Source of the DNA: Minisyncoccota bacterium
GTDB lineage: Bacteria > Patescibacteriota > Microgenomatia > UBA1400 > PJMF01
Assembly (NCBI GenBank): GCA_009991965.1
Contig: JAACWQ010000009.1
Location: forward strand, 1-32,267
Length of the DNA stretch: 32,267 nucleotides
Direction of reading: 5' to 3'
The position numbers were made by a program, and so were the translations under genes. Below are positions 15,935-20,738 of the stretch, in pieces (the first letter of the stretch is position 1; every line of letters starts with the position of its first letter). The notes beneath the pieces were generated by a model. It did no database searches, was not told the origin of the DNA, and worked only from the letters and a program-made list of their open reading frames with translations.

Positions 15935-15962
15935 TTGCCAGAAAGAAAAAAGCTACTATACT
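15935..15962 (+). promoter_or_regulatory. Promoter of greA
   Basis: TTGCCA (15935-15940), 16 nt, TATACT (15957-15962). The -10 ends 8 nt before the first ATG, so the greA message from this promoter would be leaderless or nearly so. It lies in the 44-nt gap after atpC. Confidence 0.65.
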
Positions 15963-15970
15963 CAACGCGT

Positions 15971-16459
15971 ATGATGAATGCCGCTACACCAGTCAATCAG
16001 ATGATTACACTTACCCAAGGCGGTCTTGACGAGCTCAATGAGGAGTTGCGCATTCTTGTAGAAGAGAAGCTTCCTGCAGTTATCACACGCATCGCAATTG
16101 CTCGAGATCATGGAGACCTGTCTGAAAATGCCGAGTACCACAGTGCCAGAGATGAGCAGCAACTTTTGCAGGCAAGAATTGATGAAATCGAGATGATTTT
16201 GTCAAAGTCTACCGTCGCAAGTAATACCACCAGCCACACCAATGTTGGCCTAGGTTCTACTGTCACCATTCAGAAAAAAGGCGGTAAAAAAACAAAAACC
16301 GTCACCTTAGTCGGAGAGTTTGAGGCAGATCCAGAAGAAAATAAGATCTCAAATGCCTCACCATTGGGAAAAGCGCTCGCTGGTAAGAAGAAGGGCGACG
16401 AAGCGAAAGTAGCAGCACCTGCGGGGGAATTGCTCTACACAATAATCGCAATAAAATAA
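15971..16459 (+). CDS. greA: Transcript cleavage factor GreA
   Basis: A 162-residue elongation factor that enters the RNA polymerase secondary channel and stimulates cleavage of backtracked RNA. The N-terminal coiled coil starts at MITLTQGGLDELNEEL, its tip has the acidic DHGDLSENAEY, and the C-terminal FKBP-like domain contains LVGEFEADPEENKIS and SPLGKALAGKKKGDE. The start is at 15971 or the adjacent ATG 15974; these fit the promoter spacing. A later ATG at 16001 would also give a normal GreA. A strong terminator follows directly. Confidence 0.95.
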   Translation: MMNAATPVNQMITLTQGGLDELNEELRILVEEKLPAVITRIAIARDHGDLSENAEYHSARDEQQLLQARIDEIEMILSKSTVASNTTSHTNVGLGSTVTIQKKGGKKTKTVTLVGEFEADPEENKISNASPLGKALAGKKKGDEAKVAAPAGELLYTIIAIK

Positions 16460-16550: not shown

Positions 16551-18914
16551 ATGAACACAATACAACATTCGGATCACTGGGTTGACGCTGTCACAACGAA
16601 ACTACTTGAATGGCAAACGAAACAGTCAGTACCCAACCTACACGTCGATGACATGAAAACTCCCTCTGGGAGAGTGCATACTGGTGCGCTTCGCGGCGTG
16701 GTACTTCATGATCTAGTGGCAAAAGCACTTGAGAGCAAAGTCGCAAGCCAAATTGCAAACACCTATGTTTTCAATGATATGGATCCAATGGATGGTTTGC
16801 CTGGCTATCTACCGGCTGAAAAATTCGAACAATATATGGGTGTGCCACTCTACCAAATTCCTGCACCAAGTATTGCGGAGTCGGGCGTCGATTTTTCACA
16901 CGCCACAGATGCAGAAAAAAAACGATACGCCGAAGCAAAAAGTTTTGCCGAGTTTTACGCCTTCGACTTTATTGATGCGTTTCGAACACTTGGCTGCTCA
17001 CAACAAATTATCTGGAGCCACGAACTCTATCAATCGGGAAAAATGGATGCTGTCATCAAAACTGCGCTCGATTCTATCGACAAAATTCGAACTATCTATA
17101 AAGAAGTTGCCGACTACCAACTGCCAGATAACTGGTTTCCTTTTCAGGTTACCTGTCCAGAATGTGGCAAAGTAGGCACAACACTTACCACTGGTTGGGA
17201 CGGCACAGAAGTCACCTTTGAGTGTCAACCAAACAAAGTCACCTGGGCCAAAGGCTGTAGCCATACTGGATCGATTTCACCATTTGGGGGAACGGGGAAA
17301 TTGCTCTGGAAAGTAGACTGGCCAGGTCACTGGGCTGCTCTCGGCATAACCGTTGAAGGCGCAGGCAAAGATCACACCAGTGCCGGCGGCTCTCGAGATA
17401 TGGCAAACGCGCTCTGCAAAGAGGTTTTTGCGATCGAAGCACCATTTGACATTCCTTACGAATGGATCCTGATTCGTGGCGCCAAGATGAGCTCGAGCAA
17501 AGGCATTGGCACCTCTGCGCGAGAATTTGTCCAACTCTTCCCACCAACGGTTGGTCGCTTCCTCTTCGCCAGCAAAGACTACAACCAAGTCATTGACTTT
17601 GATCCCGCATCGTTTTCGATTCCAGATTTATTTGATGAATATGACCAAGGAGCTAGAATTTTTTGGGAAACAGAAGTAGGTGACAAACGACTCGGTCGTG
17701 CCTTCGAATTATCACAGATTGGTAGAACTCCAACCGCACATTTTTTGCCAAGATTCCGCGATCTCGCCCTCTGGATGCAACATCCAGAGATTGATCTCGT
17801 CAAACAATTTTCTGAGATTGCGGGCGCACCACTCACTCCACAAGAGATCGAAGAGTTAGAAATGAAACGAGTCTATGCAGAAAAATGGGTAAAATTCTAT
17901 GCACCAGAAGAGTACCAACTGCGACCAAAAGTGGAACTGCCAGAAGCAGCAACTGAATTATCGGTAGAACAAATCCAGTTCTTGCAAGATGCACTTACAA
18001 TGCTAGAGGAAAAAGATTGGGATCCTACGGATTTGCAACAAGGTCTCTTTGACAAAGCAAAACAAGGTCTCGGAGCCAAATACGCATTTCAAGCAATCTA
18101 TCTCGCGTTCTTGGGCAAAAAATCTGGACCAAGAGCCGCGTGGTTTTTGCTTTCGATCGAACCGGAGTTGAGAACAAAACGAATTACAGAATTACAAAAT
18201 CTAAAAACTGAAGTTGTGGTTGAACCAGATTCAAATACGAACAACCTTATTAGTACCGAAGTAAAACAACAATTCCCTGGCATCTTTTTCGCCTCAGTAA
18301 AGATTTCTGGCGTTCAGATACAAAAAGAAAGTAAAGAACTGCAAGAATTAACCAAAAAAATACTGCAGTCGCTCACCGTATCTACAACTGAAGACATAAC
18401 GAGTCTTGCGCCAATACAGGCATATCGCAAACTCCTAAAAGCAACTGGGACCGATTTCCACAGCAAGCGCCCTTCGCCAGAAGCATTGCTGCGAAGAATC
18501 ATGCAAGGAAAGAATTTATATCAAATAAATACTGCTGTGGATGCATACAACCTCGCGGTGCTCGAAACTGGCGTTGGACTTGGTGGTTTTGATGCATCGC
18601 AACTTACTGGACCAGTGCAACTTCGCTTTTCAAACCAAAATGAGTCGATGCAACTACTTGGGGATTCCGAACCAACGCTGACTAGAGAAAATCAACTTGT
18701 CTATGCTGACGCAGAAAAAGCTATTACAATCGACCTCAACTACAGAGACATTGACGCGACAAAAATTACGACAGATACTACCGATATTCTGCTCTTTGCT
18801 GATGGTGCCCCAAACCTGGCAGAAGACGATATACTAGCTGCACTACAAAAAGGCGCCGAATACATTCAACAGTTCTGCAGCGGCACGATCGAATCAATAG
18901 TAGTCAACAAATAA
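16551..18914 (+). CDS. lysS: Class I lysyl-tRNA synthetase fused to a B3/B4-type domain
   Basis: A 787-residue protein. Residues 1 to about 550 are an archaeal-type class I LysRS: HIGH-equivalent SGRVHTG (39-45), a zinc-finger-like insertion beginning CPEC (202-205), GAGKDHTSAGGSRD, KMSSS (312-316) and an alpha-helical anticodon-binding region. Class I LysRS is usually about 500-550 residues. The remaining part (about 570-787) resembles the B3/B4 domain of phenylalanyl-tRNA synthetase beta and its free-standing relatives: APIQAYRKLL, RPSPEALLRRI (640-650), INTAVDAYN (659-667), ETGVGLGGFD, and a late strand with DLNYRD. B3/B4 domains hydrolyse mischarged tRNA in PheRS. A TACAAT box 11 nt upstream and a weak GGG ribosome site precede the ATG. 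Confidence 0.9.
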   Translation: MNTIQHSDHWVDAVTTKLLEWQTKQSVPNLHVDDMKTPSGRVHTGALRGVVLHDLVAKALESKVASQIANTYVFNDMDPMDGLPGYLPAEKFEQYMGVPLYQIPAPSIAESGVDFSHATDAEKKRYAEAKSFAEFYAFDFIDAFRTLGCSQQIIWSHELYQSGKMDAVIKTALDSIDKIRTIYKEVADYQLPDNWFPFQVTCPECGKVGTTLTTGWDGTEVTFECQPNKVTWAKGCSHTGSISPFGGTGKLLWKVDWPGHWAALGITVEGAGKDHTSAGGSRDMANALCKEVFAIEAPFDIPYEWILIRGAKMSSSKGIGTSAREFVQLFPPTVGRFLFASKDYNQVIDFDPASFSIPDLFDEYDQGARIFWETEVGDKRLGRAFELSQIGRTPTAHFLPRFRDLALWMQHPEIDLVKQFSEIAGAPLTPQEIEELEMKRVYAEKWVKFYAPEEYQLRPKVELPEAATELSVEQIQFLQDALTMLEEKDWDPTDLQQGLFDKAKQGLGAKYAFQAIYLAFLGKKSGPRAAWFLLSIEPELRTKRITELQNLKTEVVVEPDSNTNNLISTEVKQQFPGIFFASVKISGVQIQKESKELQELTKKILQSLTVSTTEDITSLAPIQAYRKLLKATGTDFHSKRPSPEALLRRIMQGKNLYQINTAVDAYNLAVLETGVGLGGFDASQLTGPVQLRFSNQNESMQLLGDSEPTLTRENQLVYADAEKAITIDLNYRDIDATKITTDTTDILLFADGAPNLAEDDILAALQKGAEYIQQFCSGTIESIVVNK

Positions 18915-18921
18915 AGTTCTT

Positions 18922-19455
18922 ATGTCCCTCCCAACCCGCCAACAATCACAAGACATGCTCACCCAGTATGTGAAAAATCCTGCGCTGCTCAAACACTGCT
19001 ACATGGTGGCCGCAGCGATGGAGGCTTGCGCGGTAGCCCTGGGTGAAGACGGTGAATTGTGGCACCAAGCCGGTCTGCTGCACGATCTCGATTGGGAGGC
19101 ATTTCCAGACGAACATCCAAACAAAGCCATCAATGAACTATTGGTAGAGTACCCGAACGAATTATTGCAAGCTATTGCAGCCCACGCGCCCGATAGAACT
19201 GGCAAACAACCTGAGACACAAATAGAGCGCTATTTATTTGCAAATGACGAACTCTCTGGCCTCATGCACGCCGTTTCCCTCATGCGTCCGGGTGGATTCA
19301 ACGATATGAAGCCAAAGTCTATTAAGAAAAAATTGAAAGATAAATCGTTTGCCGCCAATGTCAGTCGAGACGATATCAATCAGGGTTTTGAGTTGATTGG
19401 TAAAACACCAGACGAACACATCGAATTTCTCATCACCGTGTTTCAAAAAGAGTAG
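18922..19455 (+). CDS. HD-superfamily metal-dependent phosphohydrolase
   Basis: A 177-residue helical protein with the HD signature: His25, adjacent His54-Asp55 in GLLHDLDWE, His88 in AAHAPD and Asp109 in FANDELSG. These would bind a divalent metal pair or single metal and hydrolyse a phosphate ester or nucleotide. It begins 7 nt after lysS with no evident ribosome binding site, implying reinitiation, and ends 8 nt before serS. The substrate cannot be read from the sequence. Its fixed place between two aminoacyl-tRNA synthetases hints at a link to translation or nucleotide turnover. Confidence 0.75.
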   Translation: MSLPTRQQSQDMLTQYVKNPALLKHCYMVAAAMEACAVALGEDGELWHQAGLLHDLDWEAFPDEHPNKAINELLVEYPNELLQAIAAHAPDRTGKQPETQIERYLFANDELSGLMHAVSLMRPGGFNDMKPKSIKKKLKDKSFAANVSRDDINQGFELIGKTPDEHIEFLITVFQKE

Positions 19456-19463
19456 GAGGACAT

Positions 19464-20738
19464 ATGCTCAGTATTCAGTACATCACGCAAAACCAAGCTG
19501 AGCTTGAGGCAGCCTGCAAAAATAAAAACCTTGATCCTAAAATTGTCGCGGAAGTGCTCTCCCTAGATATAAAGCGCAGAGAGCTACAGGGCAAAACCGA
19601 CGAGCTACGCAAACAAAGCAATGAAATTGCCGAGGCTATAAAACAAGCTGTCGGAGCGGGTAATAAACCGACGCCAGAACAAATCGAGACCGGCAAAAAA
19701 ATCAAAGAGCAACTCAAAGAATTGGAGCCAGCACAAAAAGAAGTAGAGACAGCATTCGCACAAAAAATGTACTTTATTCCCAATGTGCCAGCCGCCGATG
19801 TGCCCATTGGCCCAGACGAGTCTGGTAATCGAATTATAAAAACTGTTGGCACGCCACCGCAATTTTCGTTCACCCCAAAGCATCACCATGAACTCATGGA
19901 GCAAGCAGACATGCTTGATACCAAGCGAGCAGTGCGGATTGGTGGCTTCCGCTCGTATTTTTTGAAAAATGATGGGTTACTGCTTGAACAAGCACTCTTG
20001 CAATACGCATTGCGCAAACTCAAAAAAGTTGGCTTTGACCTCCTCTCTGCACCCGTGCTGGTGAACGAAGAGACAATGTGGGGCACTGGCTACCTACCCT
20101 GGGGGCAAGAAGATCACTACCTTACACAAGATAATCAGTTTTTGGCCGGCACCGCAGAAGTAGCGCTGACTGCCTTTCACGCTGGAGAGCTCTTGCGCGA
20201 AAAAGATTTGCCAATAAAAATGGCAGGCATTTCTCCTTGTTTTCGCCGAGAAGTTGGTGCGCACGGCAAAGATACTCAGGGCATAGTTCGCGTCCACCAA
20301 TTTAATAAAGTTGAACAAGTCGTGTATACGACTGCCGACGAGGATGAAACTCGCAAGTGGCACGAGCGTATGGTAGGACTGAGTGAAGAATTACTGACTG
20401 ATCTTGGTCTGTCTTATCAAGTGCTTCTGATGTGTACTGGAGATATGGGCGCAGGTCAGCGCAAAAAATACGATATTGAAACTTGGTTTCCAGCCCAGGA
20501 AAAGTACCGAGAAACTCACTCAGCTAGTTACTTCAATGACTTCCAGGCGCGTCGGCTTAACATTAAGTACCAAGCAGGTGACGGCAGCAAAAAGTTTGTT
20601 TATACGCTCAATAACACCATGGCCGCATCACCTCGCCTCCTCGCAGCAATAGTCGAGAATTTTCAGCAAAAAGATGGTAGTATTGCCATTCCGACCGTAC
20701 TAGAGGAATTCATGGGCAAAAAACTCATCACTCCATAG
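19464..20738 (+). CDS. serS: Seryl-tRNA synthetase
   Basis: A 424-residue class II synthetase that charges tRNA-Ser. The N-terminal antiparallel coiled coil (about 30-100), which binds the long variable arm, is present. The core contains GTAEVALTAFHAGELL, motif 2 (SPCFRREVGAHGKDT) and QFNKVEQ, and motif 3 around NNTMAASPRLLAAIVENFQ, slightly unlike the usual LA-x-G-R form but retaining the Arg. An AGGAGGA ribosome binding site lies just upstream. Confidence 0.96.
   Translation: MLSIQYITQNQAELEAACKNKNLDPKIVAEVLSLDIKRRELQGKTDELRKQSNEIAEAIKQAVGAGNKPTPEQIETGKKIKEQLKELEPAQKEVETAFAQKMYFIPNVPAADVPIGPDESGNRIIKTVGTPPQFSFTPKHHHELMEQADMLDTKRAVRIGGFRSYFLKNDGLLLEQALLQYALRKLKKVGFDLLSAPVLVNEETMWGTGYLPWGQEDHYLTQDNQFLAGTAEVALTAFHAGELLREKDLPIKMAGISPCFRREVGAHGKDTQGIVRVHQFNKVEQVVYTTADEDETRKWHERMVGLSEELLTDLGLSYQVLLMCTGDMGAGQRKKYDIETWFPAQEKYRETHSASYFNDFQARRLNIKYQAGDGSKKFVYTLNNTMAASPRLLAAIVENFQQKDGSIAIPTVLEEFMGKKLITP

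Follow-up and report, generated by a model that had tools for sequence, protein, structure and literature searches.

A lysine-type B3/4 domain on class I and class II lysyl-tRNA synthetases of Patescibacteria is a candidate post-transfer editing module

THE FUSED GENE AND ITS PRODUCT

The window analysed here, meaning the whole stretch of 32,267 nucleotides from contig JAACWQ010000009.1 (assembly GCA_009991965.1) of a member of Candidatus Pacebacteria (Patescibacteria), carries a gene in which a class I lysyl-tRNA synthetase (LysRS) core is followed, within a single open reading frame (ORF), by a C-terminal B3/4 domain. The ORF starts with ATG and encodes 787 amino acids with no internal stops (Table 1). 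NCBIfam lysS_arch (TIGR00467) matches residues 9-546 with 296.2 bits against a cut-off of 147.55, covering the whole core; Pfam tRNA-synt_1f scores 263 bits, and the core aligns with the class I LysRS of PDB entry 1irx with an E-value of 4e-60. Both motifs of the class I signature, which the initial annotation had reported from the first 320 residues, are indeed present, as T37-P-S-G-R-V-H43-T-G45 (the HIGH equivalent) and K312-M-S-S-S316. The protein thereby shares a complete core with 1irx and the members of TIGR00467, but typical members stop near residue 520-550, whereas the window protein is ~230 residues longer. No match to a bacterial class II LysRS was found in its own genome at E <= 1e-60, and so the enzyme should be the sole LysRS there, with lysylation as its predicted activity.

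The tail as modelled comprises residues 563-787 (~225 amino acids), and it contains the three motifs from which a B3/B4 domain had been proposed, namely, RPSPEALLRRI (residues 640-650), INTAVDAYN (residues 659-667) and ETGVGLGGFD (residues 672-681). That proposal is borne out by profile and predicted structure alike: Pfam B3_4 (PF03483) matches residues 625-753 of the full protein, beyond residue 560, with 91.5 bits (E 6e-26; cut-off 29.3), and the isolated tail with 96 bits, while AlphaFold models the tail alone with a predicted local distance difference test (pLDDT) score of 95.1. For the whole protein the pLDDT is 91.3, the sole internal low-confidence stretch being the linker at residues 554-561, and Foldseek retrieves class I LysRS 1irx, then CtdA. 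When the tail is searched against the PDB, CtdA comes first (9mkl and 9f7e; template modelling (TM) scores 0.79-0.82, E 8e-16), followed by the beta subunit of phenylalanyl-tRNA synthetase (PheRS; E 2e-11); the closest solved structures to the tail are likewise CtdA 9f7e and 9mkl, at 122 and 120 bits, respectively. A sister locus, the single one retrieved by a scan with patterns close to the window, also belongs to Candidatus Pacebacteria. Between the window protein and its sister L004, the non-synonymous divergence (dN) is 0.145 for the tail, 0.136 for the core and 0.97 for the linker, with synonymous sites near saturation; by this measure, the tail is under purifying selection equal to that on the core.

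Table 1. Features of the fused gene and its neighbours (positions in the window)
Feature	Position	Strand	Basis
Whole fused gene (class I LysRS core plus C-terminal B3/4 domain)	16551..18914	+	Single ORF; Pfam/NCBIfam; AlphaFold and Foldseek
Class I LysRS core, residues 9-546	16575..18188	+	TIGR00467 296 bits; Foldseek 1irx E 5.8e-35
HIGH-equivalent motif HTGA, residues 43-46	16677..16688	+	H43 and G45 never vary among the 52 fused class I LysRSs
KMSSS motif, residues 312-316	17484..17498	+	K312, M313 and S316 invariant in 52 fused class I LysRSs
Core-tail linker, residues 549-562	18195..18236	+	pLDDT <50 at residues 554-561; dN ~0.97 vs 0.14 in flanking domains
Lys-type B3/4 domain, predicted aminoacyl-tRNA deacylase, residues 563-787	18237..18911	+	PF03483 96 bits (isolated tail); pLDDT 95.1; CtdA fold match E 8e-16
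Asn667 codon	18549..18551	+	Conserved in all aligned Lys- and Arg-type domains; equals E. coli PheT N254
Gly678 codon	18582..18584	+	Gly in 57/58 Lys-type and 22/22 Arg-type domains; equals E. coli PheT His265
Asp733 codon	18747..18749	+	Invariant in Lys-type (58/58), Glu/Gln in Arg-type; at or next to E. coli PheT G318
greA, upstream	15935..16459	+	Start of conserved order greA-lysRS-HD-serS; recurrent neighbour
HD-domain (HDIG) hydrolase gene	18922..19455	+	PF01966, TIGR00277; fused to class II LysRS in relatives
serS (seryl-tRNA synthetase, SerRS)	19464..20738	+	End of conserved gene order; recurrent neighbour

RELATIONSHIP OF THE TAIL TO KNOWN B3/4 DOMAINS

The nearest characterised relative of the tail is CtdA, which deacylates canavanyl-tRNA-Arg (PMC10018355). 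The likeness runs along the entire B3/4 fold (TM ~0.8) and includes shared conserved positions, among them D664, N667, G678 and an N-[YW]-R segment; by analogy, the tail is predicted to deacylate a near-cognate basic amino acid, as CtdA does. However, CtdA is freestanding and acts on tRNA-Arg, whereas the tail is fused to LysRS, and the two are only 18-21% identical. Moreover, Phe680 and Asp733 of the tail are replaced by Glu and Glu/Gln, respectively, in CtdA and the Arg-associated (Arg-type) B3/4 domains, and the window tail groups in a separate clade (Lys-type) with group-specific residues. With the B3/B4 editing domain of PheRS beta (bacterial PheT), the tail has in common its family, its fold and its attachment in cis to a synthetase, but the host enzyme and the tRNA differ. 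The same domain also occurs alone in the widespread 'PheRS beta-related' proteins (Streptomyces, Bacteroides and others); these are unfused, and those from relatives that were aligned fall with the Arg-type or in other places, not with Lys-type tails. Plasmid records gave weak B3/4 matches only (best 36.6% identity), the named ones being PheRS beta-related proteins.

Both types share N660, V663, Y666, N667, G678 and D720 in a residue alignment that comprises 58 domains of the Lys-type and 22 of the Arg-type. Specific to the Lys-type are F680 (57/58), D733 (58/58) and P688 (57/58), at which the Arg-type domains have Glu (22/22), Glu or Gln, and Asp or Asn, respectively. The tail was further mapped onto E. 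coli PheT, whose tyrosine pocket we take to consist of R244, H265, E334, T354 and A356. By two methods, hhalign (probability 97%) and MAFFT, H265 corresponds to G678, G318 to D733 (at or adjacent) and E334 to F749 (at or adjacent); in the MAFFT alignment, R244 pairs with Y657, and the segment equivalent to T354/A356 is missing from the tail. A change at PheT G318 prevents access to the editing site of PheRS (PMC4066437). The original description of the tail as PheRS-editing-like is supported as to family and fold, with a refinement from these alignments: the tail has the fold of an editing domain, yet the tyrosine pocket of PheRS is not kept. We infer that the invariant acidic residue at Asp733 would suit a cationic side-chain.

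Pocket-region conservation is strong in the Lys-type tails (N667, G678, D733 and T737), and the whole editing fold is retained. Both observations speak against the tail being a non-catalytic appendix for tRNA binding or docking, which would raise the affinity for tRNA-Lys or join partners; we regard this as unlikely, albeit appended tRNA-binding modules are common on synthetases and, in one relative (L125), a tRNA_bind domain follows the B3/4 domain.

DISTRIBUTION OF THE CLASS I FUSION

The Patescibacteria were surveyed at the level of the order (88 genomes), the class (374 and 147 genomes) and the phylum (a sample of 380). The fusion, initially noticed in one gene, proved to be far commoner than a single oddity and to belong to a wider pattern: a tailed class I LysRS is present in 10 of the 88 genomes of the order, and a strong Lys-type tail (E below 1e-80) in 52/374 of the class. 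Within the class sample of 147, 50 genomes encode a class I LysRS, and 17 of 49 strong matches have open frames of >730 residues, consistent with the tail; the phylum sample adds further cases, in other classes. In a tree of the cores, fused and bare class I LysRSs are interleaved, and strongly supported branches force at least four gains or losses. No decayed tail remnants were detected by tblastn beside bare class I LysRS genes, which are directly followed in most cases by the HD gene or serS. The window's genus also contains a fused protein (L005 in genome G065) with a core 80% identical to that of the window and a tail only 31% identical; its tail is of another subtype, grouping with that of G004 (support 100/99), and this mismatch suggests that the tail was swapped between members of one genus.

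Such recurrence bears on the trivial explanation, that an annotation, assembly or readthrough artefact has joined two proteins. One stop-free frame is found in dozens of independent assemblies from many families, which excludes an assembly artefact and refutes this scarcely credible explanation at the DNA level; indeed, the single ORF, the profile scores, the fold and the recurrence together led us to reject an artefact or a chance match.

THE TAIL ON BOTH CLASSES OF LYSRS

LysRS is the textbook exception among the synthetases in existing in two unrelated classes. The Lys-type tail is found on both: ten genomes encode a class II LysRS, with a core unrelated to that of class I, that bears it. 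In the first of these (L033 in genome G081), the class II LysRS (TIGR00499, 524 bits) carries a tail 54% identical to that of the window; the others come from the class (L100, L114, L120 and L125) and phylum (L205, L206, L208, L209 and L210) searches. Two of them are further extended at the C-terminus, by DUF2000 in L120 (4053-6698) and by tRNA_bind in L125 (2375-4966).

When 90 B3/4 domains were placed in a tree, the Lys-type tails, 59 in number, came out as a single clade (98/92), within which the five class II tails occupy five separate places nested among class I tails, as forced by strongly supported branches alone. The Lys clade of an enlarged tree holds 55 tails from class I enzymes and 10 from class II, with two more cut at contig ends, and is split from the Arg-type with a support of 100; at least six changes are forced for the class II label, part of these being due to one protein, L212 (see below). 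The enlarged tree is a short search with SH-aLRT support only, as several of the trees are short searches, and some B3/4 rows are long-branched. Among the class II cores, tail carriers are scattered among bare ones. No freestanding Lys-type tail was found in the class and order searches, in which unfused pieces occur only at contig ends. The presence of the same tail clade on unrelated class I and class II enzymes indicates that the tail follows lysine or tRNA-Lys rather than the synthetase fold, and the simplest reading of the sequences is that it belongs to tRNA-Lys/lysine. In each class II case, the core may have been replaced under a retained tail, or the tail may have moved between cores.

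This recurrent pairing with two unrelated LysRS cores is left unexplained if the tail edits another tRNA, such as tRNA-Phe or tRNA-Arg, and is merely carried on LysRS. Such a role has precedents, with tRNA-Phe the target of the B3/4 domain in PheRS and tRNA-Arg that of CtdA (PMC10018355), and neither PheS nor PheT was matched in the window's own metagenome-assembled genome (G000). However, the Arg-type domains form a separate clade with arginyl-tRNA synthetase (ArgRS) fusions of their own, and PheS and PheT coexist with the LysRS tail in relatives; we consider this possibility slightly less probable even than a non-catalytic appendix. PheT is present in nearly all of the family and PheS in 7/7 of the relatives checked, so the lack in G000 is most simply, and probably, an assembly gap. 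For the same reason, the tail as a replacement for a missing PheRS editing domain was rejected.

OTHER SYNTHETASE FUSIONS AND THE GENE NEIGHBOURHOOD

B3/4 domains are also fused to other synthetases. The Arg-type domains, a clade of their own and in many cases freestanding like CtdA, include N-terminal B3/4 domains on ArgRS, of which the class and order searches yielded 15 cases (L129-L131, L133-L136, L138, L139, L143-L145, L149, L037 and L038) and the phylum sample more; this is likely to be a CtdA-like editing module fused in cis. At three further loci (L142, L150 and L223), an unfused B3/4 gene adjoins that of ArgRS. Tyrosyl-tRNA synthetase (TyrRS) carries the domain at its N-terminus (L040, L152, L220 and L221), and methionyl-tRNA synthetase (MetRS) at its C-terminus, in L146 (2955-5135) and, by weak similarity to the L146 MetRS, in L219 (3743-6166). 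A triple fusion of YbaK-type tRNA_edit, B3/4 and tryptophanyl-tRNA synthetase (TrpRS) is encoded at L147 (1760-3928) and L216 (2663-4912), such that one synthetase bears two distinct editing-type domains. Architectures were confirmed with Pfam for L146, L147, L040, L152, L037, L129 and L131. That the domain is joined to six different synthetases argues for tRNA substrates, and the characterised B3/4 proteins act on aminoacyl-tRNA (PMC10018355, PMC11295145); it is thus very improbable that the tail senses or hydrolyses a free small molecule, such as a lysine analogue or a polyamine, instead, a role in the line of the small-molecule alternative raised in the initial annotation.

The gene order greA-lysRS-HD-serS is often common to the class I and class II tail-bearing versions; at L033, greA comes first and the HD gene and serS come after, as in the window, with other genes in between. 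In at least 10 relatives, the HD hydrolase itself forms a C-terminal extension of class II LysRS (L161, L162, L164-L171, L208 and L209), and it is never fused to class I LysRS in this sample. Where all three domains coincide, the order is LysRS2-B3/4-HD (L208) or LysRS2-HD-B3/4 (L209). Since class II LysRS makes diadenosine tetraphosphate (Ap4A; PMC5370406), a role for the HD protein as an Ap4A hydrolase may be worth considering.

PROPOSED FUNCTION AND IMPLICATIONS

The class II LysRS of E. coli wrongly attaches Arg, Thr, Met and other amino acids to tRNA-Lys, and it is reported not to clear the Arg-, Thr- and Met-tRNA-Lys so formed (PMC5370406); the literature therefore leaves room for a LysRS editing module. 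The known editing by this enzyme is pre-transfer (PMC7373986), and in the review text consulted a separate post-transfer editing domain is described for neither LysRS class (PMC7373986, PMC11295145). No report of a LysRS-B3/4 fusion was found among the literature titles and abstracts retrieved, a weak negative given that the spellings 'B3/4' and 'B3/B4' are not searchable.

We propose that the tail is a post-transfer editing module for tRNA-Lys, acting in cis and CtdA-like, and we give this a probability of roughly two-thirds. The initial annotation's suggestion that the fusion could clear mischarged tRNA-Lys is thereby supported. The domain itself, its fold, its conservation and its presence on both LysRS classes are demonstrated here; the deacylase activity and the specificity for tRNA-Lys are inferred from that fold, conservation and repeated pairing with LysRS. 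The LysRS core would charge tRNA-Lys; were the tRNA wrongly charged, its CCA end would reach the B3/4 pocket with the assistance of the flexible linker, and the ester bond of the mischarged tRNA-Lys would be hydrolysed there, whereas correctly charged Lys-tRNA-Lys would be spared. The module would work as CtdA does, except that it is attached to the synthetase and adapted to lysine. Asp733 is invariant in the pocket region, and the substrate of CtdA is an arginine analogue; from these two points, our guess is that the amino acid removed may be basic but non-cognate (Arg, ornithine, thialysine or some other analogue of lysine).

Several observations weigh against this proposal. About two-thirds of the class I LysRSs in the class lack the tail, which is also missing from the genomes of close relatives; such widespread absence implies that it is not essential for lysylation. 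In a tree built by a short search, the tail of L212, a class II LysRS, clusters with the Arg-type domains. Moreover, with the pocket residues of PheRS not conserved and the T354/A356 segment missing, catalysis is not readable from PheRS.

With marginally less confidence than in the editing role itself, we favour the wider view that Patescibacteria have a dedicated lysine-specific B3/4 module, which would make it the first candidate for a post-transfer editing domain on any LysRS. The module would have been kept or re-acquired at least five times across changes between class I and class II cores, and would represent one branch of a wider, plug-in B3/4 proofreading on LysRS-I, LysRS-II, ArgRS, TyrRS, MetRS and TrpRS. 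A tail that keeps to tRNA-Lys on both sides of the class divide amounts to a natural experiment, one that points to selection for proofreading at lysine codons, and the question of which amino acids are mischarged on tRNA-Lys becomes directly testable. Overall, the findings suggest that reduced-genome bacteria may equip many of their synthetases with interchangeable editing modules.
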